Of a stretch of DNA of 64,000 nt, positions 11,641 to 31,951 are shown piece by piece. Source of the DNA: Lachnospiraceae bacterium MD308 (GTDB taxonomy: Bacteria; Bacillota; Clostridia; Lachnospirales; Lachnospiraceae). The notes under the pieces are model-generated. The model did no database searches, was not told the DNA's origin, and was given only the letters and a program-made list of their open reading frames with translations. The translations under genes and the position numbers were made by a program. The stretch lies in NCBI GenBank assembly GCA_010206225.2, contig VIQU02000002.1, positions 480-64,479 of the forward strand, in the 5' to 3' direction. The first letter of the stretch is position 1. The number at the start of each line of letters is the position of its first letter.

Positions 11641-12681
11641 ATGAGATCAGATGTCAGATTAACAAATTTAAGCAAGACCGCAGGCTGAGCGGCTAAGATT
11701 GGTCCGGAGACCCTTGCTCAGGTTCTGAGTAAGCTGCCGAAATTCCAGAATGATAATCTGCTCGTCGGTATTGAGACATCCGATGATGCGGCCATATATA
11801 AAGTGACGGATGATATCGCCATGATACAGACTGTTGACTTTTTTACACCGATTGTCGATGATCCTTATATGTTTGGACAGATAGCGGCTGCCAACTCCTT
11901 AAGCGATGTGTGGGCTATGGGAGGCGAGCCGGCAGTTGCACTTAACATAGTCGGATTCCCAAATTGTCTGGATCCGGCGATCTTGGGCGACATCCTGGCG
12001 GGTGGCGCGGCAAAGGTGAAAGAAGCAGGAGCGGTACTGGTGGGCGGACATTCCGTACAGGATGATGAACCTAAATACGGATTATGTGTGTCAGGCTTTG
12101 TACACCCTGATAAGATATTTAAAAATTATGGCTGCAGACCGGGAGATATTCTCGTTCTGACAAAACAGATCGGAAGCGGGATCGTCAATACTGCGATTAA
12201 AGCAGAGATGGCATCGCCGTCAGCGATCAGGGAGGCGCAGACAGTTATGGCGTCTTTAAATAAACTGGGAAAACAGGTAGTAGAAAAGTATGATGTGTCT
12301 GCATGTACAGATATTACCGGATTCGGGCTTTTAGGCCATTGTGTGGAGATGGCTTCTGCCAGCGAGGTTACATTTGAGCTTCGGGTGGATGATATCGCCT
12401 ATTTTGAGGATGCCATTGACTATGCGAAGATGGGACTTGTGCCTGCCGGGGCGTACAAAAACAGAGGATATTCCATGAAGCATGTGGAGACGGGGGCAAT
12501 AAAAGAGCATTTTCTTGATCTGCTTTATGACCCGCAGACATCGGGAGGATTACTGATCAGCGTATCACCGGAGAATCTAGGTGATATGACGGCTGATTTT
12601 CAGGCTGCCCGTATGGATACGACGGTATCAGTTATTGGTAAAGTAACGGCAAAAAGTGATAAATTGATTCGATTATTCTAA
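11641..12681 (+). CDS. selD: Selenide, water dikinase, selenoprotein (UGA at 11686-11688 read as Sec)
   Basis: MRSDVRLTNLSKTAG-U-AAKIGPETLAQVL... continues in frame into MTDDIAMIQTVDFFTPIVDDPYMFGQIAAANSLSDVWAMGG; SD AGGAGG upstream. Confidence 0.95.
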
Positions 12682-12701
12682 ATGTGAAGAAAGGGAATGT
12701 T

Positions 12702-14126
12702 ATGAACAAGAATCTTTTATACAGAAGTATCCCGAAGGTTGACGTGCTTTTGGAAGATGAAAATATACAGAAGATGATAGAGCGCTACAGCAGAGAGACG
12801 GTGATGGAGGCTATTCATATAGAGATGGACAAGCTGCGCGGCTTTATTGCGAGAGCAGAGGATGAGGATAAGGCAAAGGCGCAGATTGAGATGCTCCCTT
12901 CCCATATCGAGCTTACCGTGTCGGCCATGCATACGCCTAATATGCGTATGGTAGTGAACGGGACAGGTACGATCCTTCACACCAATCTCGGGCGAGCGCC
13001 TATCAGTGCAGAGCACATGAAACGAGTTCTGCCGCTTGTCAGCGGATATTCGAATCTGGAATACAATCTGGAAGCCGGGAAGAGAGGAGAGCGTTATTCC
13101 CATTTTGAAAAGCTTTTGTGTAAGCTTACAGGAGCAGAGGCCGCAATGGCGGTGAATAACAATGCCTCCTCTGTGCTGCTGATCTTAAGCTCTCTGGCAA
13201 AAGGGGGAGAGGTTATCGTATCCCGCGGAGAGCTGATTGAGATTGGCGGGAAGTTTCGTATTCCAGATGTGATGGAGCAGAGCGGGGCAGCTTTGGTCGA
13301 GGTTGGAACTACCAATAAGACTCATTATGATGACTATGAAAATGCCATTACCGAAGAGACAAAGGCGCTGCTCAAAGTACATACGAGCAATTACCGGATC
13401 GTAGGTTTTACAGATTCGGTGGGGATTGATGCATTGATTCCTCTCGCCAGAGAGCATGATATACCGGTTGTGGAGGATCTGGGCAGCGGTGTTCTCATAG
13501 ATCTGGCAAAGTACGGTCTGACACATGAGCCTACAGTGCAGGAATCCATTGTGAAAGGCGCAGACGTAGTATGTTTCAGCGGAGATAAGCTTCTGGGAGG
13601 TCCTCAGGCAGGCATTATAATCGGAAAGAAAAAGTATATTGACATGATGAAGAAAAACCAGCTTACAAGAGCGCTCCGGATAGATAAATTTACCGCGGCG
13701 GCGCTGGAGCTGGTACTTCAGGAATATTTATCAGAGGAAAAGGCGGTTAAAAACATTCCGGTACTCCGGATGCTTTCAGAACCGCGGGAAGAGGTTCATA
13801 AGAGGGCGAAGACGCTTCTTAGGATCTTGAGAAATAGAAAGCTTCCGGCGAAGATGGAGATAAAGCCATGTGAGTCACAGATCGGGGGAGGTTCGCTTCC
13901 GCTTGAGCGGATTCCCAGTATGGCTGTCACGATCCGGCCGGAAAAGATCAGTGTAAATGAATTGGAAGAGCGTATGCGTCTGCTTCCGGTGCCGATCATA
14001 CCAAGAACGGTGAATGACGAGATTCTTCTTGATGTGAGAACCATATCGGAAAGAGACGTAAAAGTGATCGCAGATCAGCTTGACGAGCTTGATGTGCTTA
14101 ACGAGATCAGCTTAATAGAACAGTGA
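12702..14126 (+). CDS. selA: L-seryl-tRNA(Sec) selenium transferase
   Basis: Next in cluster; NGTGTILHTNLGRAP and VVCFSGDKLLGGPQAGI PLP-lysine motif. Confidence 0.95.
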   Translation: MNKNLLYRSIPKVDVLLEDENIQKMIERYSRETVMEAIHIEMDKLRGFIARAEDEDKAKAQIEMLPSHIELTVSAMHTPNMRMVVNGTGTILHTNLGRAPISAEHMKRVLPLVSGYSNLEYNLEAGKRGERYSHFEKLLCKLTGAEAAMAVNNNASSVLLILSSLAKGGEVIVSRGELIEIGGKFRIPDVMEQSGAALVEVGTTNKTHYDDYENAITEETKALLKVHTSNYRIVGFTDSVGIDALIPLAREHDIPVVEDLGSGVLIDLAKYGLTHEPTVQESIVKGADVVCFSGDKLLGGPQAGIIIGKKKYIDMMKKNQLTRALRIDKFTAAALELVLQEYLSEEKAVKNIPVLRMLSEPREEVHKRAKTLLRILRNRKLPAKMEIKPCESQIGGGSLPLERIPSMAVTIRPEKISVNELEERMRLLPVPIIPRTVNDEILLDVRTISERDVKVIADQLDELDVLNEISLIEQ

Positions 14127-14160
14127 TTTAGAAAGGCGCGCCTTAAAAGGACAAGGGAAT

Positions 14161-16074
14161 ATGAAGAACGTAATTATAGGAACAGCAGGACATATCGATC
14201 ACGGGAAGACCACCCTGATAAAAGCATTGACAGGGAGAAATACAGACCGCTGGGAGGAAGAACAGAGAAGAGGGATTACGATTGATCTGGGATTCACTTA
14301 CTTTGATCTTCCGAGCGGAGACAGGGCTGGAATCATTGACGTGCCGGGTCATGAAAAATTTATCAACAACATGGTTGCAGGGGTTGTAGGGATGGATCTC
14401 GTGCTTCTTGTGATTGCCGCGGACGAAGGGATCATGCCGCAGACAAGAGAGCATATGGATATTCTTCATTTGCTCGGAATTGAAAAGAGCATTGTCGTGC
14501 TGAATAAATGCGACCTTGTAGATGAAGAGTGGCTGGAGCTTGTGGAAGAAGAGATAAAAGAAGAATTTGAAGGGACATTTCTTGAACAGGCGCCGGTAGT
14601 GAAGGTTTCTGCCGCTACAGGAAAAGGCCTTGAAGAGCTTGTGGAGCTGATCAGCCATATGACAAGTGATGAAGTGGTAGAGAAGGATATCCACACCATA
14701 CCGCGTCTGCCGATTGACAGGGCATTTTCCCTGTCCGGATTTGGTACGGTCATTACCGGCACGCTTGTTTCAGGAACCATCCGTAAGGAAGATATGCTGG
14801 AGATGTATCCGATTGGGAAAGAGAGCAAGATCCGGAGCATACAGGTGCATGGAGAGGATAAGACTGTGTGCTATGCAGGCCAGCGGGTGGCGATCAATCT
14901 TTCTAATATAAAGAAACGTGAGATTCAGAGAGGATGTGTTCTTGCTTCTAAAGGAAGTATGAAGACGGCAGACCTTCTGGATGTAAGGTTAAATGTATTA
15001 GACAGCTCCATGCGCGTGCTGACGAACCATACAAGACTTCATTTTTTTACCGGGACAAGTGAAATACTCTGCCGTGCGGTTCTTCTGGACCGGGAGGAGA
15101 TCGGACCGGGAGAGAGCGGTCTGGTGCAGCTTAGGCTGGAAGAGAGCATTGCAGTACGGCGGGGGGATAAGTTTATCGTAAGATTCTATTCTCCGATGGA
15201 GACGATCGGGGGCGGTGTTGTATTAGAGCCGAATCCGGGTATTAAGAAGCGTTTCCGGGAGGAGGTTATAGAGGAGCTTAAACGTAAGGAATCTGGTTCC
15301 AGTGCGGATGTCATAGAGCTTCATGTAAAAGAGCACAGGGAGACGATGATCACTGTGTCTGAGCTTGCGAAGCTCACCGCGCTTTCGGCAGAAGAAGTGA
15401 AAAAAGACGTTGAGGAGCTTGAAGAGCAGAAGAAAGTACATCTATTTGCCATGCGCAAAGATACGTATGTCTGGCATACGGAGGCTGCCGAGGAGGCAGT
15501 CCGCACACTGAAGAGTGCATTGTCTTCTTATGAAAAGAGATATCCGTATCGCTATGGAATCAAGAAGGCAGAAGTTCAGGCGACATACTTTTCAAAGATG
15601 AGGCCGAATGTATTTGACCGTATGATAGAAATGATGGCAGAAAAAGGATGGATTATGCGGGTGGATGAGTTTTTGTGCACACCGGGCTATAATGTATGTA
15701 AGGATGAGACGTTCAAAAAGGTATCAGGGATTCTTCTGGATACATTTGAGAAGAGCCGTTTTGACTTTGTGCGTTATTCTGAAATTAAATGTGAAGGAAC
15801 GCCCAGAGAGATCTGTGATGATATACTGAACATACTGCTTCATGAGGAAAAAGCAGTGAAGGTTACAGATGATATGTATACGCTTACAAGCTATATGGAG
15901 GAGGCCAGAAAGTTGATCTTAGAAAGGCTTGCCGAGTCTCCGGTGATCACGATAGCCGAGGTGCGGGATATGTTTTCGACAAGCAGAAAGAGCGCAAAAC
16001 CAATTTTGGAATATATGGATAGTATTAAAGTGACGAAAAAGACAGGCGGAGAAAGTGAAAGGGTAGCATACTAA
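14161..16074 (+). CDS. selB: Selenocysteine-specific elongation factor
   Basis: [35 protein letters not shown] plus long C-terminal winged-helix extension. Confidence 0.95.
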
Positions 16075-16982
16075 TGAATTTGAAACAGTTGGAGGCTTTT
16101 GTGAAGGTTGTCGAGACCGGAAGCTTTTCAAAAGCCGCAAAAGAATTATATCTGACACAGCCAACAGTGAGCGCTCATATATCAACTCTTGAGAGGGAGC
16201 TTAAAGTCAGGCTGTTTATCCGCAATACGAAGGAAGTGATGATGTCAGAAGCGGGGCAGGAATTATACAGATATGCGAAACAGATGGTTGAACTGGAATG
16301 TCAGATTGCAGAGCATTTTAATATGCGTGGAAAGAATTCATCGAGTCATTGTGTTACGATCGCAGCTTCTACTATACCGGCACAGTATCTATTGCCAGAG
16401 GTGCTGATGCAGTTTAAGAAGCGCTATCCCGATGAACAGTTTAAGCTTATAGAGACAGACAGTACAGAAGTCGTATCGCAGATTGTGAACAGTATGGCAG
16501 ATGTTGGGTTTACCGGAACTGTGCTGGAGAAGAAATATTGCAGATACATTCCTTTCTATAAGGATAAACTGGCGATCATTACGCCCAATACGGAGAAATA
16601 CCGGACTTTACTGGAAAGCAGCAAGGATGACATCTCATGGATTAAAAAAGAGCATATTATCATGCGTGAGGAAGGCTCTGGTACGCGCAAGGAAGCACAG
16701 AAGCAGCTTAAAAAAGCAGGGATAGAGACTGCGAATCTGGATATTATAGCAAGTATAGATAATCAGGAGACGATCAAGCGTTCAGTGCGTCAGGGAATGG
16801 GGATCTCTGTGCTGTCCAGACTTGCGACGGAGGAGGAAGTACGCAGCGGGCAGATACTGGCATTTCCGATTCCGAAGTCGGATGCGGGGCGGGATATTAA
16901 TCTTGTTTACAACAAAAACGCTCCTATGACGGCGAATATAGAGCGTTTTATTAAGATCATAAAAGAAATTTATAATATTTAA
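16074..16982 (+). CDS. LysR family regulator (selenium-cluster associated)
   Basis: [40 protein letters not shown]. Confidence 0.85.
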   Translation: MNLKQLEAFVKVVETGSFSKAAKELYLTQPTVSAHISTLERELKVRLFIRNTKEVMMSEAGQELYRYAKQMVELECQIAEHFNMRGKNSSSHCVTIAASTIPAQYLLPEVLMQFKKRYPDEQFKLIETDSTEVVSQIVNSMADVGFTGTVLEKKYCRYIPFYKDKLAIITPNTEKYRTLLESSKDDISWIKKEHIIMREEGSGTRKEAQKQLKKAGIETANLDIIASIDNQETIKRSVRQGMGISVLSRLATEEEVRSGQILAFPIPKSDAGRDINLVYNKNAPMTANIERFIKIIKEIYNI

Positions 16983-17015
16983 CGGCAGATAAGCTGGGGA
17001 AAAGAGGATGAACAT

Positions 17016-18158
17016 ATGATATATCTGGATAACGCGGCAACGACGATGCATAAGCCGCAATGTGTGATCGAGGCGGTTATCGGCGCGATGAGTTCTATGG
17101 GGAATGCCGGAAGAGGAGCAAATGAGGCATCGCTTAGTGCGTCGAGGATTATTTACGATACAAGAGAGAAGATTTGCCGTCTCTTTGGAGGAACGAATCC
17201 AAGGCAGGTGGCATTTACGAATAATTCGACAGAAAGTCTGAATATAGCGATTAAGGGACTTTTGAATCCGGGAGACCATGTGATTACGACGGTGTTGGAA
17301 CATAATTCTGTTCTGCGTCCATTATATGAGATGGAGAAAAAAGGCATAAAGCTCACGATCATAAAAAGCGATCACAAGGGCAGGCTTGATATTTCACAGA
17401 TCAGGAAGGCGATCTGTACGGAGACAAAGATGATCGTATGTACCAACGGCTCGAATCTGACAGGGAATTATGTGGATGTGGGTGCCGTTGGAAAGATTGC
17501 GAAGGAGCATGGCGTGCTTTTTGTAGTGGATGCTTCACAGACCGCGGGGGTGTTTCCGATTGATGTAGAGAAAATGAATATTGATGTTTTGTGCTTTACG
17601 GGGCATAAAGGCCTTTTGGGACCGCAAGGAACCGGCGGGCTGTATGTGCGGGAAGGCGTTGTCATACGTCCGTTAAAGTGCGGCGGAACCGGCGTGCAGA
17701 CTTATAATAAGCAACAGCCGGAGGAAATGCCCACTGCTCTTGAAGCGGGCACCCTTAACGGACACGGGATCGCAGGACTTCATGCGGCATTAGAGTATCT
17801 GGAGGAGACAGGCATTGATAAGATCCGTGCCAGAGAGCAGGAGCTGATGCGAAAGTTTTATGACGGAGTCAAAAATATTCCCGAAGTTACGGTATATGGA
17901 GATTTTTCTGAAAAAGAGAGATGTCCGATCGTGCTTTTGAACATTGGCGACTATGATTCTGGCGAGGTAAGCGATGCGCTCCTTACAGAGTATGGTATCT
18001 CTACAAGACCGGGCGGGCATTGTGCGCCGCTTATGCATGAGGCGCTTGGAACGGTGGAGCAGGGAGCGGTAAGGTTCAGCTTCTGTCATTATAACACGGA
18101 CGAAGAGGTGGAAGCAGCCGTCCGCGCTGTCAGAGAGCTTGCACAGGAGGAAGAGTAA
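17016..18158 (+). CDS. Class V aminotransferase / cysteine desulfurase family protein
   Basis: MIYLDNAATTMHKP; VLCFTGHKGLLGPQGTGGLYV; RPGGHCAPLMHEALG. Confidence 0.85.
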   Translation: MIYLDNAATTMHKPQCVIEAVIGAMSSMGNAGRGANEASLSASRIIYDTREKICRLFGGTNPRQVAFTNNSTESLNIAIKGLLNPGDHVITTVLEHNSVLRPLYEMEKKGIKLTIIKSDHKGRLDISQIRKAICTETKMIVCTNGSNLTGNYVDVGAVGKIAKEHGVLFVVDASQTAGVFPIDVEKMNIDVLCFTGHKGLLGPQGTGGLYVREGVVIRPLKCGGTGVQTYNKQQPEEMPTALEAGTLNGHGIAGLHAALEYLEETGIDKIRAREQELMRKFYDGVKNIPEVTVYGDFSEKERCPIVLLNIGDYDSGEVSDALLTEYGISTRPGGHCAPLMHEALGTVEQGAVRFSFCHYNTDEEVEAAVRAVRELAQEEE

Positions 18159-20534: not shown

Positions 20535-20632
20535 GGGGGTAGATGGGTGACTGGTGTGCCTCCTGGTCTTCAAAACCAGTGTGGGGCGTTAAGAGCGTCC
20601 CGGGTGGGTTCGATTCCCACATGCCCTCGCCA
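20535..20632 (+). tRNA. selC: tRNA-Sec (anticodon TCA at 20570-20572)
   Basis: 98-nt with anticodon arm CTGGTCTTCAAAACCAG, long variable arm GGGGCGTTAAGAGCGTCCC, T arm GTGGGTTCGATTCCCAC, 3' GCCA encoded. Confidence 0.93.
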
Positions 20633-20870: not shown

Positions 20871-22286
20871 ATGTTTAACATGGGAAATGTACAGATGTTA
20901 TTACGTCAGCATGTTGGGGCACCATGTGCGGCGATCGTTAAGGCCGGTGATGAAGTAAAAAAAGGTACTTTGATCGCAACGCCTACGGGGCTTGGCGCTA
21001 ACATTTTTTCCAGTGTGTACGGAAAGGTGACGGAGGTTTTGGAAGACCGGATCATCATTGAGCCGGCAGAAGAACAGCCAGACGAGTTCGTACCGATCGA
21101 TGTGCCTGAGGACGCAAGCAAGCTTGATATGGTAAAGGCGGCAGGCGTTGTCGGACTTGGGGGTGCAGGATTTCCGACAGGTATCAAGCTGAATATTAAT
21201 CTGGCAGAGACGCCGATGGGCGAGCTTGACCCGGAGATCAATCCGGAGCTTCCGGCTGATTTCAAGTTAGACTGTGAGAAGGGTTACATCCTTATCAACG
21301 CAGCGGAGTGTGAGCCGGGACTTGAGCATAACATCAGGCAGATTGAAGAGCAGTGCGATAAAGTGATCCGCGGTGTTAAATACTGCATGGAGATTACGAA
21401 TGCTGACAAGGCGATCTTCGCTATCAAGAAAAAGAACCAGAAGGCGATCAAGACTTTGCAGAAAGCGCTTGAGAATGAGCCTGCAATCTCTATGCACCTT
21501 CTTCCGGATATATATCCGATGGGAGAAGAGCGTGCGGTAGTAAGAGAATGTCTGGGAGTGAATCTCACGACGATGCAGCTTCCTTCAGCGGCAAAGTCCG
21601 TTGTAGTGAATCTTGAGACGGCGGCTAAGGTTGCCGAGGCGATTGATGAGAAGAAACCATGTATTACAAAGAATCTGACGGTTCGCGGCAAGCTCAACGG
21701 TGGAAATGGCGCACACGTATTCATGGATGTTCCTGTTGGAACAAGTGTTGGGGAATTGATCGAAAGAGCCGGCGGAATTGATGGAAAATACGGTGAGATC
21801 GTTATGGGCGGAGCATTTACTGGAAAGTCTACGGATTTTGACGCGCCGATCACGAAGACGACAGGCGGAATTCTTGTTACGGTTGAGTTCCCGGATCTTC
21901 ATGGAGCGAATGTGGGACTTCTTGTCTGTGCCTGCGGCGGTAATGAAGACCGTATGCGCGAGATCTGCGAGAAGATGAACGGAAAGGTTGTATCTGTGGC
22001 AAGATGTAAGCAGGCGATCGAGAACAAGCCTGGAGCACCGCTTAAGTGCTTAAGACCTGGCAACTGTCCGGGACAGGTTAAGAATAACATGCAGTTCAAG
22101 AAAGATAAGTGCGAATACATCATTATCGGTAACTGTTCAGACTGCTCCAATACAGTTATGGCATCCGGACCGAAGATGGGGCTTAAGGTATTCCACCAGA
22201 CTGACCATGTGATGAGATCCGTTGGCCATGCTCTGTATAGAACGCTTAAGGTGTCTAAACAGGTAAGTCAGGATGTTGATTTTTAA
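20871..22286 (+). CDS. prdC: Proline reductase-associated electron transfer protein PrdC (RnfC-like)
   Basis: LLRQHVGAPCAAIVKAGDEVKKGTLIA; VGLGGAGFPTGIKL; start probably 20880. Confidence 0.88.
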   Translation: MFNMGNVQMLLRQHVGAPCAAIVKAGDEVKKGTLIATPTGLGANIFSSVYGKVTEVLEDRIIIEPAEEQPDEFVPIDVPEDASKLDMVKAAGVVGLGGAGFPTGIKLNINLAETPMGELDPEINPELPADFKLDCEKGYILINAAECEPGLEHNIRQIEEQCDKVIRGVKYCMEITNADKAIFAIKKKNQKAIKTLQKALENEPAISMHLLPDIYPMGEERAVVRECLGVNLTTMQLPSAAKSVVVNLETAAKVAEAIDEKKPCITKNLTVRGKLNGGNGAHVFMDVPVGTSVGELIERAGGIDGKYGEIVMGGAFTGKSTDFDAPITKTTGGILVTVEFPDLHGANVGLLVCACGGNEDRMREICEKMNGKVVSVARCKQAIENKPGAPLKCLRPGNCPGQVKNNMQFKKDKCEYIIIGNCSDCSNTVMASGPKMGLKVFHQTDHVMRSVGHALYRTLKVSKQVSQDVDF

Positions 22287-22322
22287 CGCAAATGCTAGAA
22301 AGGTATTACTATTGTTTTCGGC

Positions 22323-22355
22323 AATGGAGAAAGACCCCCGATTCTTTCCTCCATT
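22323..22355. promoter_or_regulatory. Intercistronic hairpin between prdC and prdA
   Basis: AATGGAGAAAGA-cccccgat-TCTTTCCTCCATT, no U tract after it. Confidence 0.5.
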
Positions 22356-22460
22356 CCATAAGGCGAGAGGTTTCTTATGTGCCGGAGACAATTGTATATA
22401 TAATAATTTTTGCAGTCTATAAGGGCTGTTTAAGAAATCCAAACAAGGAGGGAAAACAAT

Positions 22461-24317
22461 ATGTCTATCACAGCTGAAACAGCGAAAGCACATGCTCATG
22501 ATCCTGCGGTTTTATGTTGTAGAGCCGAGGCTGGCATTACAATCGAGCCTGCGAATCTGGAAGATCCGTCAATTTTTGACGATTTGGTAGATTCAGGATT
22601 ATTAAACCTTGACGGTTGCCTGACCATCGAGGAAGTATTAGGAGCAAAACTTACAAAAACCTGTGATTCTCTTGCTCCGCTTACGGCAGATGTTCTTGAC
22701 GGAGTAAAGGCTCCGAGCGTAAGCGCTCCGGCAGTTGAAGAAGAGGTTGCACAGGAGGCGCCGGATCAAGCAGCACCAACAGCGGCAGTACCGGTTGCAG
22801 CAGGCGGCATGCTCAAGATCCACATCGGAGAGGGTAAGGATATTGACCTTCAGATTCCGGTTGGAGCACTTGGCGGCGGCGCAGCAGTAGCAGAAGTTCC
22901 GGCAGCGGCAGTTGCAGCAGCAGACGCAGCGGCACCGGCAGCAGCAGTCGGAGAAGAGAGAATCGTAGGAACTCTTACAAGAAAGCACTTCAACATCACA
23001 GAAGTTAAGAGAGGGCCTGAGACAAAGATCGAGGGAACTGTGCTTACTATCCGTGAGGGAATCGAAGCAGATGTTATCGCAGATCAGGAATTAGTTAAAG
23101 ATTTTAAACTTGAGATCATTACTCCTGAGTTATATCACACATATTCTGAGACCGTTATGGACGTACAGCCAATCGCTACGAAAGAGGGCGACAGTGAGCT
23201 TGGAAGCGGCGTGACAAGAGTGCTTGACGGCGTTGTTATGATGCTGACAGGCGTTGACGAGGGCGGAGTTCAGATCGGTGAGTTCGGTTCTTCCGAAGGA
23301 TACCTTGACGAGAACATTATGTGGGGCCGTCCGGGATGTCCGGATAAAGGCGAGATCTTCATCAAAGGTAACATTGTTATTCAGGAGAAGACAAACATGG
23401 AGCGCCGCGGACCTATGGCTGCTCATACAGCATTTGATATCATCACGCAGGAAATTCGTGAGGTTATGAAGAAGCTTGACGAGAGCCTTGTAGTTGATAC
23501 GCAGGAGCTGAAATCTATCCGCCGTCCGGGTAAGAAGAAAGTTGTAATCGTTAAAGAGATCATGGGACAGGGAGCTATGCATGATAACTTCATCCTTCCT
23601 GTAGAGCCGGTTGGTATCCTTGGCGCAAGAGCAAACGTAGACTTAGGAAACGTTCCTGTATGCGTATCTCCGCTTGAGGTTCTGGACGGATGTATCCATG
23701 CTTTAACATGTATCGGACCTGCATCGAAAGAGATGTCCAGACATTACTGGAGAGAGCCGCTTGTTCTTGAGGCTCTTCACGATGAAGAAGTTGACCTTTG
23801 CGGTGTTATATTCGTTGGATCTCCTCAGATTAACGCTGAGAAATTCTATGTATCCCGCCGTGTAGGACACACAGTAGAGATGCTGGATGCTGACGGCGCA
23901 TTCGTTACGACAGAAGGATTTGGAAACAACCATATCGACTTTGCAAGCCATATCGAGCAGATTGGTATGAGAGGCGTTCCGACAGTAGGTATGTCTTACT
24001 GTGCAGTACAGGGAGCTCTCGTTGTTGGTAATAAGTACATGCAGTACATGGTTGATAACAATAAGTCTGAAGCAGGTATCGAGAATGAGATTCTTGGTAA
24101 CAATACACTTTGCCCAGAGGACGCTGTCCGTGCACTTGCTATGCTGAAAGCGGCTATGGCCGGAGAAGACGTTAAGGCTGCTGAGAAGAAGTGGAATCCA
24201 AACGTTAAGTCTACAAACGTAGAGTTAATTGAGGGCGCATATGGCACAAAGATCGATCTCGTTGGAAATGAGCAGGAGCTCCCAATGAGCGAGAAGCGTA
24301 GATTAAAATACAGCTAA
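22461..24317 (+). CDS. prdA: D-proline reductase proprotein PrdA (pyruvoyl-forming)
   Basis: IRRPGKKKVVIVKEIMGQGAMHDN...DGCIHALTCIGPASKEMSRHYWREPL; Ala-rich linker in N-terminal part. Confidence 0.93.
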   Translation: MSITAETAKAHAHDPAVLCCRAEAGITIEPANLEDPSIFDDLVDSGLLNLDGCLTIEEVLGAKLTKTCDSLAPLTADVLDGVKAPSVSAPAVEEEVAQEAPDQAAPTAAVPVAAGGMLKIHIGEGKDIDLQIPVGALGGGAAVAEVPAAAVAAADAAAPAAAVGEERIVGTLTRKHFNITEVKRGPETKIEGTVLTIREGIEADVIADQELVKDFKLEIITPELYHTYSETVMDVQPIATKEGDSELGSGVTRVLDGVVMMLTGVDEGGVQIGEFGSSEGYLDENIMWGRPGCPDKGEIFIKGNIVIQEKTNMERRGPMAAHTAFDIITQEIREVMKKLDESLVVDTQELKSIRRPGKKKVVIVKEIMGQGAMHDNFILPVEPVGILGARANVDLGNVPVCVSPLEVLDGCIHALTCIGPASKEMSRHYWREPLVLEALHDEEVDLCGVIFVGSPQINAEKFYVSRRVGHTVEMLDADGAFVTTEGFGNNHIDFASHIEQIGMRGVPTVGMSYCAVQGALVVGNKYMQYMVDNNKSEAGIENEILGNNTLCPEDAVRALAMLKAAMAGEDVKAAEKKWNPNVKSTNVELIEGAYGTKIDLVGNEQELPMSEKRRLKYS

Positions 24318-24334
24318 GCCAAAGGTGTTTCTGG

Positions 24335-24631
24335 ATGAATAATGAACGTTTGAATTACGGCGACAGGATCATTTATATGGAGGGTGTTGTAGTAGATGTC
24401 GACGACTGCAGTATCAGCGTTGACCTGAAAGGACGCCTTGGGTTTTTCAAAGCTCCCAAGAGAATGTTTATCTGTGACACTGAACCGAAAGTGGGGCAGG
24501 AATTTGGATGGAACATGAGCTTTCCGGAGCAGCTTGGACCGGAGATAAATGAACACTACGTCAGCAACATTGAAAAAGAAAGACGCAAACAACAAGAAAT
24601 GAGTAAACGTTTGGATAATAAGGAGGTCTAA
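24335..24631 (+). CDS. Small prd-cluster protein (CBO2463/CBO2479-like)
   Basis: 98 aa ORF between prdA and prdB with good RBS; known gene-order position. Confidence 0.65.
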   Translation: MNNERLNYGDRIIYMEGVVVDVDDCSISVDLKGRLGFFKAPKRMFICDTEPKVGQEFGWNMSFPEQLGPEINEHYVSNIEKERRKQQEMSKRLDNKEV

Positions 24632-24633
24632 AA

Positions 24634-25359
24634 ATGAGTTTAACGGTTGTTAAAGGTTTACAATCAGAAATATTCGTTCCTATTACTCCGCCGTCTGTAT
24701 GGACTCCTGTAACAAAAGAGCTTAAGGATATGTCTATTGCTCTTGCGACAGCAGCAGGTGTTCACAAGAAAGATCAGGAAAGATTTAATCTTGCCGGTGA
24801 TTTCACATGGAGAAAGATAGAGAACACAACTCCGTCAGATGATCTGATGGTATCCCACGGCGGATATGATAACAGTGATGTTAACAAAGACATCAACTGC
24901 ATGTTCCCGATTGACAGAATCCACGAGTTAGCTAAAGAAGGCTTTATCAGAGCTTGCGCTCCGGTACATGCCGGATTCATGGGCGGCGGCGGAAATCAGG
25001 AGAAGTTCAAAGGCGAGACTGGTCCGGCTATCGCTCAGATGTTCAAAGAAGAGGATGTTGACGCAGTTGTCCTCACCGCTGGCTGAGGTACCTGCCACCG
25101 CTCTGCAGTATTGGTGCAGAGAGCGATTGAAGAAGCTGGAATTCCTACAATTATTATTGCAGCTCTTCCACCGGTTGTTCGTCAGACCGGTACTCCTCGT
25201 GCAGTTGCTCCGTTGGTGCCTATGGGTGCTAATGCAGGTGGACCGCACAATGTTGAACAGCAGACACAGATCGTTAAGGCGACTCTTGAGCAGCTGGTAG
25301 AGATCCAGACGCCTGGAAAGATTGTTCCGCTGCCATTCGAGTATGTAGCTAAGATTTGA
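24634..25359 (+). CDS. prdB: D-proline reductase catalytic subunit PrdB, selenoprotein (UGA at 25084-25086)
   Basis: ...DVDAVVLTAG-U-GTCHRSAVLVQRAIEEAGIPTIIIAALPPVVRQTGTPRAVAPLVPMGANAGGPHN; the two track ORFs join in frame through TGA. Confidence 0.96.
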
Positions 25360-25377
25360 TTTTGATTATAGTTCACG

Positions 25378-25435
25378 CGTCACCGGTCAGCTCAGGTTTC
25401 ACGCTTGCATGAGAAACTGAGTTGGCTGGCTGACG
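25378..25435. promoter_or_regulatory. Large imperfect hairpin downstream of prdB
   Basis: CGTCA..CTCAGGTTTC-acgcttgcat-GAGAAACTGAG..TGACG. Confidence 0.5.
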
Positions 25436-25535
25436 AAGGGAGCGTCGGTTCATGAGCAAAGATAGCTGTGACGCAGCGATGAGGCACCGTAGGTGTGTTT
25501 TGTGAAGGGCGCGGTGTGAACGGATTAAAGTTTCG

Positions 25536-25564
25536 GAGCAGATGTTTTTCATCTGCTCTTTTTT
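25536..25564 (+). terminator. Rho-independent terminator between prdB and prdD
   Basis: GAGCAGATG-ttttt-CATCTGCTC-TTTTTT. Confidence 0.85.
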
Positions 25565-25573
25565 AAAACGGAG

Positions 25574-26353
25574 GTGAAAATAAAATTGGCAGATGAGGTA
25601 AAGGATTTAAGAAGGCTGGTTATCAAGGCGTTCCATATGAATGAGGTAGAGTGGGGCGACCATAATGATATCACGACGGACGGCCATATGACAGTGAGCA
25701 AGGAGATGATTGACGAGCTTGTGGCGGCAGAGGAGCATATTGAGAAGATTGATATCCAGATTATCAAGCCGGGCGATCATGACCGCTGGACAAACACGAT
25801 GATGGATATTGTGCCTATATCCACAAAGGTGCTCGGAAAACTGGGAGAGGGGATTACGCATACGATTACAGGTGTGTATGTCATCCTTACGGGTGTGGAT
25901 GTGAATGGCAAACAGTGCCATGAATTCGGCTCGTCAGAGGGAAACTTAAAGGAGCAGTTATATCTGAACCGGGCAGGTACGCCGGGGGATGATGATTATA
26001 TTATTTCCTTTGATGTGACTCTTGCGGCAGGCATGGGTCAGGAGCGTCCGGGGCCGACTGCAGCCCACCGGGCATGTGATAAGTTCATTCAGAGCTATCG
26101 TGACAAATTAAAGAAATTCAAAGGTGAAAAATGTACAGAACGTCATGAGTATCACGACATCGTAAGGCCGGGAAAGAAGAAAGTGCTGATCATCAAACAG
26201 GTTGCCGGGCAGGGAGCCATGTATGACACGCACTTGTTTGCGAAAGAACCTTCTGGCGTGGAAGGTGGAAAATCAATTATTGACATGGGTAATATGCCAA
26301 TCATCGTATCTCCAAATGAGTACCGAGACGGCATTATCCGTTCTATGCAGTAG
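25574..26353 (+). CDS. prdD: PrdD, paralogue of the N-terminal/beta part of PrdA
   Basis: IVRPGKKKVLIIKQVAGQGAMYDTHLF; EFGSSEGNL; true start likely TTG at 25586 (MADEVKDL) from RBS spacing. Confidence 0.85.
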   Translation: MKIKLADEVKDLRRLVIKAFHMNEVEWGDHNDITTDGHMTVSKEMIDELVAAEEHIEKIDIQIIKPGDHDRWTNTMMDIVPISTKVLGKLGEGITHTITGVYVILTGVDVNGKQCHEFGSSEGNLKEQLYLNRAGTPGDDDYIISFDVTLAAGMGQERPGPTAAHRACDKFIQSYRDKLKKFKGEKCTERHEYHDIVRPGKKKVLIIKQVAGQGAMYDTHLFAKEPSGVEGGKSIIDMGNMPIIVSPNEYRDGIIRSMQ

Positions 26354-26366
26354 GAGGTGAAAGAAT

Positions 26367-26843
26367 ATGGGAATTGGTCCTTCAACAAAGGAAACATCGC
26401 TGCATCATTTCAGGGATCCTCTTTTGGAGGTTGTGGCGGAAGACACTGACCTTGACCTGATGGGAGTTATGCTTGTAGGCTCTCCGGATGGAAATGAAGA
26501 TAAGATGCTTGTTGGAACAAGAGCAGCTGTGTGGGCAGAATGTATGCGTGCAGACGGCGTGATTCTTTCCTGCGACGGCTGGGGGAACAGCCATGTGGAC
26601 TATACGAACACGATTGAGCAGATTGGCATAAGAGGCATACCGGTTACGGGAATCACATTTAACGGTACAGTTGCACAGTTTGTAGTTGTCAATGATTATC
26701 TGGATGCGATTGTTGATATCAACAAGAGCGAGAGTGGGGAAGAGACGGACGTAGTCGGGGAAAACAATATGGACCGCATTGATTGTCTGAAAGCAAAAGC
26801 ATTGCTTAAGCTTAAGATGAGAAAAAAAGATCAAATGGGATAA
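26367..26843 (+). CDS. prdE: PrdE, paralogue of the C-terminal/alpha part of PrdA
   Basis: MGIGPSTKETSLHHFRDPLLEVVAEDTDLDLMGVMLVGSPDGNEDK aligns with the PrdA segment following the processing Cys. Confidence 0.85.
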   Translation: MGIGPSTKETSLHHFRDPLLEVVAEDTDLDLMGVMLVGSPDGNEDKMLVGTRAAVWAECMRADGVILSCDGWGNSHVDYTNTIEQIGIRGIPVTGITFNGTVAQFVVVNDYLDAIVDINKSESGEETDVVGENNMDRIDCLKAKALLKLKMRKKDQMG

Positions 26844-26919: not shown

Positions 26920-26948
26920 TTGACGTGAAAAACAAGAAATGGTATATT
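26920..26948 (+). promoter_or_regulatory. Putative sigma-70 promoter of ncRNA candidate
   Basis: TTGACG - 17 nt - TATATT. Confidence 0.65.
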
Positions 26949-26954
26949 AATAAC

Positions 26955-27175
26955 GCTTAATTAATGGTTGTTATTGCAGTTACACGGCCGCCGATTGTTT
27001 CCCCCAAGAACAGTCTTGCGGCAGTGAACTCCAATTAATATATACTTTCCTCCTTACGGAGGAGCATTCCCCAGCTTTGTATATAGCAAAACTGCAATGC
27101 AACGAGGAAAAACCTCTCAATGACATACCAAAGGAAAGAGCGCGGCATTCTGAAAATGCTGTGCTCTTTCTGTTT
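26955..27175 (+). ncRNA. Candidate standalone structured ncRNA (family unassigned; 6S RNA is one possibility)
   Basis: Closing stem GTTG/ATTGCAGTT (26967-26981) with AACTGCAAT/GCAAC (27090-27103), two internal hairpins, then a 15-bp terminator-like stem 27135-27169; no ORF. Confidence 0.55.
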
Positions 27176-27176
27176 G
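27135..27176. terminator. Terminator-like hairpin at end of ncRNA candidate
   Basis: AAAGAGCGCGGCATT-ctgaa-AATGCTGTGCTCTTT followed by CTGTTT. Confidence 0.6.
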
Positions 27177-27183
27177 TAAATAT

Positions 27184-27819
27184 TTATTCGTGTATAAATT
27201 TTTTCTCCCAGCTCATGCACCATTTGGTGAGTGGGCCGAGAACAAGCATACCGCCGATCGTCCCTTCGCGGATTTTGATCGACAGACCGAATATGAGTGA
27301 TAAGGAAAGGGAAATGGCGATGAGTATAGCATCCCCTGCAATGTGCAGCTTAGCAAAATCAATACCATATTTGCTGCTGGCAGTATAATACATCCCCTCT
27401 ACCGGTATCTGTACAGCGCCTAAAAGATTAAGACCGCCGATGAATACAGCCAGTCCAAGATAGGAGATGGCCCAGAATAAGACTCTTATGGGATATCCGT
27501 TGAGGTCAAAGGTAAAGATACGGTAATATACGAAATTGACAACAACACCGAATATAACAGCTACGGGAATCTGCAGAAATCGGATGGGGTGGAAATCTTT
27601 TCTCAGCATGAGTATCTGGATCAGGACACAGATCAGGTTTCCGATAATACTGAAAGTACCTACTTTAAAGCCTGTAAGCTGATAGACGTTCAGGCTTACG
27701 GAATCCCAGCAGGCACATAGCCCGATATCTGCCTTCATGCAGAAGGTTTGGGATACGGCCATCATAACGACAAAAAAAGTCACAAGAGCATATTTTTTGA
27801 TAATTTTTTTAGTACCCAT
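27184..27819 (-). CDS. YitT/YczE-like membrane protein
   Basis: 5-6 TM segments, FSIIGNLICVLIQILMLRKDF; conserved YczE-like pattern. Confidence 0.6.
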   Translation of the reverse strand: MGTKKIIKKYALVTFFVVMMAVSQTFCMKADIGLCACWDSVSLNVYQLTGFKVGTFSIIGNLICVLIQILMLRKDFHPIRFLQIPVAVIFGVVVNFVYYRIFTFDLNGYPIRVLFWAISYLGLAVFIGGLNLLGAVQIPVEGMYYTASSKYGIDFAKLHIAGDAILIAISLSLSLIFGLSIKIREGTIGGMLVLGPLTKWCMSWEKKFIHE

Positions 27820-27980: not shown

Positions 27981-28907
27981 CTAAGCGGCAGAACCTTTCT
28001 TGATAGCATCACGAAGATATAAGAATGCTGTCAAGTATACGATAGCAACGATAATCTTAGTAAGTACATCAAGCGGTAAGCTCTTAACAAATGCATAAGC
28101 TACATATACGCCGAGTGCTCCGAAGATTGCCTGTGTCCAGGAAGCAACCATATCATATCTGCCTTCTTTGATGAACTTCGGTCCATTACCAAATGCCATC
28201 AGATATGCACAGGAACCCATCATAGCCGGGAACGCGCAGCCTGCATCCATTCCGAGCGCAAGAACCATAGCCATACATGGTGCATAAAGACCAACACCGA
28301 TACTCATAAGAGCACCAAAAATGAAATTACCTACAACTGCAATTACGAGTTTAATTCCTGATAATCCAAGTTCTGTACCTACTGTACCGAATGGTCCGAC
28401 ACCAAGCACTTTCATAAGAATTACGGTTGCAAGAATAAACAAACCAATGAACAGCGTATAACGTACTTTCTTTCTGTCAAACTTCGATACGATACTAGCC
28501 ATCAGGATAGAACCGGCAACAGAAGCAACAAGCATAAGTACAAGTGTAATAACATCCATCTCTACAAAACCAAAGAATAAGAATGCCTCAACACATACGG
28601 GAACGGTATCTCCTACGTTCAGAGTACCAGGAACCAGAACGTCGTCTACAGATCTTGTGAGCTTAAAAGCTGCGGATGACGGAGCAAAAGAACCGATACC
28701 CAAAGTATCCAGAAAGTTCGCAACGAATCCCGTGATTGCTGTTGGGATCATGTGTTTCTTCTGTTCCTGCCACTGCTCTTCGCCGGTTAATCCGATCACA
28801 GGATCCTTTTCTGGGTTAGCGCGTAACTCTTTGTCTTTCCTCCACATAAGGAATACGTTCAGGATAATGCCGATCACGCATAATCCCTTCATAATGTACA
28901 TTGCCAT
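27981..28907 (-). CDS. TauE/SafE family anion permease
   Basis: ITGFVANFLDTLGIGSFAPSS and GVGLYAPCMAMVLALGM motifs. Confidence 0.8.
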   Translation of the reverse strand: MAMYIMKGLCVIGIILNVFLMWRKDKELRANPEKDPVIGLTGEEQWQEQKKHMIPTAITGFVANFLDTLGIGSFAPSSAAFKLTRSVDDVLVPGTLNVGDTVPVCVEAFLFFGFVEMDVITLVLMLVASVAGSILMASIVSKFDRKKVRYTLFIGLFILATVILMKVLGVGPFGTVGTELGLSGIKLVIAVVGNFIFGALMSIGVGLYAPCMAMVLALGMDAGCAFPAMMGSCAYLMAFGNGPKFIKEGRYDMVASWTQAIFGALGVYVAYAFVKSLPLDVLTKIIVAIVYLTAFLYLRDAIKKGSAA

Positions 28908-31719: not shown

Positions 31720-31951
31720 TGTGACATGATAGCGATGAAACGTGAGGTTGCTGCTGAAGATCTTCTTGGAATTAATTGTTCGGGAAGAAGTATAGCGGGT
31801 TTTCCGTGGAGCGAATGTCAAGTTAGGAAACTGGCGACAAGTCACTGTATCACATATGGGCTGTGTGAGGTTCTCACGACACACACGGCAAAGTGTACAG
31901 TCACCGCTTGTCGTACTGGAGTTAATAGTACGAAAAGGAGGCGACTTTTTT
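31720..31951 (+). promoter_or_regulatory. Structured leader of S10 operon
   Basis: CGACAAG (31835-31841)/CTTGTCG (31907-31913) stem enclosing TGTGTG..CACACA hairpin; GTACT/AGTAC hairpin 31913-31931. Confidence 0.55.

Follow-up and report, generated by a model that had tools for sequence, protein, structure and literature searches.

Does the intergenic DNA downstream of prdE in Lachnospiraceae bacterium MD308 carry an RNA gene of its own, and if so, what might the RNA do? The window analysed here is a stretch of 64,000 nucleotides from this genome. The preliminary description proposed an unannotated standalone noncoding RNA between two convergent genes, and the neighbours are indeed prdE on the plus strand and a membrane-protein gene on the minus strand, with which the RNA ends convergently. 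The locus contains the following features.

26367..26843, plus strand: prdE, the upstream neighbour, matching the C-terminal part of PrdA (TIGR04480)
26920..26948, plus strand: sigma-A promoter TTGACG-N17-TATATT with an extended -10 (TG); a comparable promoter in 49 of 49 homologues
26955..27172, plus strand: predicted standalone RNA gene, its ends placed from the promoter and terminator
26967..26981, plus strand: 5' strand of the closing stem P1 (GUUGU..UUGCAGUU); helix 1, 99.3% of cells paired
26989..27020, plus strand: hairpin P2, loop CCCCCAA at 27001-27007 (UCCCC conserved); compensatory change in 7 of 10 pairs
27040..27084, plus strand: AU-rich hairpin P3 (AUAUAC/GUAUAU), with an inner hairpin at 27048-27063 and an invariant UUCCCCAG segment at 27067-27074
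27090..27103, plus strand: 3' strand of P1 (AACUGCAAUGCAAC), the same helix 1
27104..27116, plus strand: small hairpin P4, GAGG-AAAAA-CCUC; absent from several homologues, which retain CCUCUC
27112..27129, plus strand: 18-nt tail ACCUCUCAAUGACAUACC, identical in all members
27133..27171, plus strand: terminator-like stem-loop of 17 bp; helix 4, compensatory change in 8 of 14 pairs
27184..27819, minus strand: membrane protein gene, the convergent downstream neighbour; no family match

A conserved RNA gene downstream of prdE

The promoter would start transcription at about position 26955. A single match to TTGACG-N17-TATATT is at chance level (1 found versus 1.8 expected in shuffles), and its weight therefore lies on conservation across homologues. 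We collected 49 distinct homologues of the RNA, and every one has a sigma-A promoter upstream, with a TTGACA, TTGACG or TTGACT -35 element, a 17-nt spacer (18 in one) and a TATA-type -10 element (TAAATT in one). The plus strand folds at -85.5 kcal/mol versus -53.1 kcal/mol in dinucleotide shuffles (z = -7.7, 0/200). The roughly 220 nt had been described as free of a convincing ORF; core lengths among the homologues fall in all three classes modulo 3, and a peptide gene was rejected on that ground. The terminator-like stem, first given as 15 bp, is present and measures 17 bp. As a terminator it is less clear, since its U-run is interrupted in the window and it was not flagged by a simple terminator scan; in most relatives the terminator is clean and bidirectional, with an A-tract and a U-tract.

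We aligned the full element from 32 distinct sequences (alignment A1), the basis of a covariance model, R1. The consensus consists of the closing stem, a CCCC-loop hairpin, an AU-rich hairpin with a UUCCCC loop, and the terminator, and 98.6% of the cells of A1 are paired. Compensatory changes occur in 15 of its 43 pairs, a number reached by 0 of 500 shuffles, and the signal is lost in all slid controls. Two helices gain support from covariation, P2 with 7 pairs and the terminator with 8; P1 and P3 hardly vary, too little for such a test, and are consistent with the structure. The closing stem and both internal hairpins of the preliminary description are all present, and the structure as a whole is conserved and shows covariation in related genomes. 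Together, promoter, structure and covariation strongly support a standalone noncoding RNA, and on these comparative grounds the gene is almost certainly real.

The UCCCC loop of P2, the UUCCCC loop of P3 and the tail persist even where a member has otherwise diverged in much of its sequence. The tail ACCUCUCAAUGACAUACC is unpaired and identical also in divergent members that lack most of P3; members were gathered partly through the tail, and those found by R1 and blastn without it carry it too. Some members have lost the GAGG strand of P4 and kept CCUCUC, so local pairing does not account for the conservation of the tail.

Distribution of the RNA family

A blastn search over 90 loci and relatives found the element widely. 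R1 matched 24 of 299 sampled genomes of the window's bacterial family, or 23 of 299 after rejection of one weak match (G163) as chance. No other genome was matched when R1 was run against 300 genomes drawn from the phylum. Across 392 genomes of the class, the tail pattern with at most one mismatch recovered the window's own genome only, plus one chance match (G878, one mismatch), which we rejected because the RNA architecture is absent there. A search of phage and plasmid records did not find the RNA. Divergent copies were also sought beside rpsJ in genomes scored as lacking the RNA, and none was convincing; one match (L132) proved to be a LysR gene's terminator. Most of the named homologous loci come from Lachnospiraceae (Dorea, Faecalicatena contorta, Extibacter, Sporofaciens, Claveliimonas and others); cultured carriers include Extibacter muris DSM 28560, Claveliimonas bilis and Dorea phocaeensis. 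The RNA is single-copy.

As judged from these sequence comparisons, the RNA is a standalone small RNA family of about 200 nt, common to dozens of related species and, among the genomes sampled, restricted to the window's own bacterial family. It is a well-supported addition to the small set of conserved small RNAs known from Clostridia-type gut bacteria.

A candidate base-pairing RNA with C-rich loops

What the RNA does can be suggested only tentatively. Our preferred reading is that it may be a trans-acting, base-pairing regulatory RNA of the 'UCCC' type of low-GC Gram-positive bacteria, by analogy with RNAIII, RsaE, SprD, FsrA and LhrC, in which UCCC motifs in loops or single strands are proven contact sites (PMC4132741). 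P1 to P3 would present the C-rich loops, UCCCC in P2 and UUCCCC in P3, which would pair with purine-rich Shine-Dalgarno regions, as would the single-stranded, CCUCUC-containing tail. Such pairing at ribosome-binding sites would block translation; the role of the invariant tail would be that of a seed or of a binding site for a protein.

Like the LhrC, RsaE, RNAIII and FsrA type, the window RNA appears to be a standalone gene with its own promoter and terminator. It shares with that type the repeated, unpaired C-rich loops able to pair with Shine-Dalgarno sequences, here conserved as UCCCC in P2 and UUCCCC in P3, and the single-stranded stretch before the terminator (PMC4132741). It differs in having no sequence homology to these RNAs (no Rfam match), and in its larger, multibranched core closed by P1. 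The invariant 18-nt tail, the single copy and the terminator-like 5' domain of a subset of members are further differences.

Target searches found no conserved extended complementarity to Shine-Dalgarno regions, a result that leaves room for pairing through a short seed. The sole strong match was an 11-nt complement at the csd ribosome-binding site, and we rejected it as a target; it is not conserved within the genus, even in G005. In 10 genomes, sequences nearly complementary to the tail were no more frequent than expected from a reversed-pattern control, and where the P3 loop has exact 13-nt complements, these fall within unrelated coding sequences.

These negative searches speak for a structural or protein-binding RNA, our main alternative, in which tail and folded core would bind a protein, by titration or in a ribonucleoprotein, and not mRNAs. 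The unpaired tail argues for it, being identical in all members, the very divergent ones included: 18 fully invariant nucleotides exceed the need of a short seed and could be a protein site. Against this, both conserved loops are C-rich, a hallmark of small RNAs that pair with Shine-Dalgarno regions (PMC4132741), and the context suggests no protein partner. On balance we regard a protein-binding role as somewhat unlikely. The tail and loops yield precise, testable predictions.

The selenium and D-proline reductase neighbourhood

The genes around the RNA raise the question of whether it reports selenium or proline status. The neighbourhood in the window comprises the following.

11803..18158, plus strand: selenium genes (AIRS-type selD-like gene, selA, selB, a selenium LysR regulator and a cysteine-desulfurase/Sec-lyase family gene)
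20535..20632, plus strand: tRNA-Sec
20871..26353, plus strand: prdC, prdA, a 98-aa ORF, prdB (with an in-frame TGA) and prdD
31727..31840, plus strand: S10-Clostridia leader of the ribosomal protein operon

The window also holds proline racemase and putP. The selenocysteine and D-proline-reductase island is compact (11803-31840) and directly precedes the S10 leader and operon, a neighbourhood that recurs in many carriers. The RNA usually lies inside the island, and its distance to rpsJ is 0.5-14 kb in all 20 genomes that have both on one contig. This places it among genes for selenium use and Stickland (D-proline) fermentation, a pathway common to gut commensals and C. difficile; if the RNA regulates the island, it would offer a handle on competition for amino acids and selenium in the gut.

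Specific control of selenocysteine or D-proline-reductase genes would fit the presence of tRNA-Sec, selA and selB nearby and the association of the RNA with SelB and PrdB. SelB was found in 20 of the 23 genomes with the RNA versus 24 of the 276 without (p about 3e-16, a value that ignores linkage and phylogeny), and PrdB in 19 of 23 versus 12 of 276. Within the SelB-positive genomes, PrdB occurs in 19/20 with the RNA and 7/24 without (p about 7e-6, again ignoring linkage and phylogeny). However, the p values are inflated, since the genes are physically linked and the genomes share ancestry. Additionally, three genomes carry the RNA and lack SelB (G065, G166 and G238), while seven have SelB and PrdB and lack the RNA, among them G151 and G169, in which the island lies beside rpsJ. 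The selenium link may thus reflect shared location. As a pairing partner, tRNA-Sec was rejected, its complementarity to the RNA being no higher than in shuffles. We therefore consider a dedicated selenium- or proline-status role improbable.

Three observations concern the island genes themselves. A TauE/SafE-family transporter gene (27981-28907, minus strand, in the window) adjoins the prd operon in many species and is sometimes duplicated; a selenium or sulfur species is conceivably its substrate. The 98-aa ORF between prdA and prdB (24335-24631, plus strand) is conserved in prd clusters and has no Pfam match. PrdB copies without the in-frame TGA occur in five genomes (G111, G178, G181, G198 and G237), all with no SelB over the cut-off and without the RNA tail.

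An additional 5' domain in some members

At least 16 of the 49 members, about a third, carry an extra domain between promoter and core (L014, L016, L044, L091, L093, L099, L105, L107, L111, L112 and others); the window's genus does not have it. In an alignment of 17 sequences the domain consists of a conserved AACCAANGGCGGUU hairpin, which covaries, followed by a U-run. From its sequence this hairpin looks like an internal terminator, and the domain is a possible attenuator controlling the RNA. Under the base-pairing reading, members with the domain could regulate their own synthesis through internal termination. An alternative antiterminator hairpin, AACC:GGUU, was rejected; it is conserved in sequence, and its covariation is not above shuffles.

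A more far-reaching interpretation, which we regard as a long shot, is a new class of RNA that couples translation to selenium supply or to D-proline fermentation. Abundant and encoded in the selenocysteine/S10 neighbourhood, such an RNA would bind a translation or selenium factor through its invariant tail, and in many species its own synthesis would be controlled via the internal terminator in the 5' domain.

Relation to neighbouring genes and known RNA families

A cis-regulatory leader or 3' untranslated region of a neighbouring gene, such as a riboswitch or the prdE terminator region, is suggested by the position of the RNA directly after prdE in the window and by the terminator at its end. 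However, of the 34 prdE loci with the RNA, 4 have the two on one strand and 30 have them on opposite strands. Occurring on either strand, and usually antisense, the RNA is neither a prdE 3' end nor a leader. Its neighbours also change (prdE, a TauE-family gene, csd, an RlmI-like gene, rpsJ), it is convergent with the next gene in the window, and no gene consistently lies downstream of it in the same orientation. Its own promoter, free orientation and changing neighbours thus indicate a gene of its own, and we judge a cis-acting role very improbable.

A search with cmscan (Rfam 15, E<=10) returned only chance matches in the RNA region, and nothing above a family's cut-off overlaps the RNA at 20 homologous loci. 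A minus-strand match to rli40 (E 0.027, 20.6 bits versus a cut-off of 100) is just the terminator hairpin. The suggested identity as 6S RNA (SsrS), prompted by the standalone form, size of about 200 nt and long closing stem, can be dismissed, since a separate 6S gene (67.4 bits) is encoded on another contig of the genome (G000:C72:32284-32465); moreover, the window RNA does not match the RF00013 model at E<=10 and has two hairpins in a multiloop, not a single long rod with a central, promoter-mimicking bubble. By these searches the family is new, in the sense of lying outside Rfam, as the preliminary description had allowed.

Thousands of intergenic structured-RNA candidates have been reported from HMP2 human gut metagenomes (PMC8040213). 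The window RNA could be among the unnamed ones; the main text of that paper neither names nor discusses it.

Clostridiales-1 RNA (RF01699) is likewise a structured RNA of Clostridiales gut bacteria, and in G238 a copy follows the RNA at a distance of about 120 nt. Its sequence and structure are different, and it is dispersed, in contrast to the single-copy window RNA. A genome can hold as many as 47 copies of Clostridiales-1, some of them paired side by side (G067, G260, G267, G230, G323; L111:1209-1378, minus strand), a pattern that resembles a mobile or repeat element more closely than a small RNA gene.
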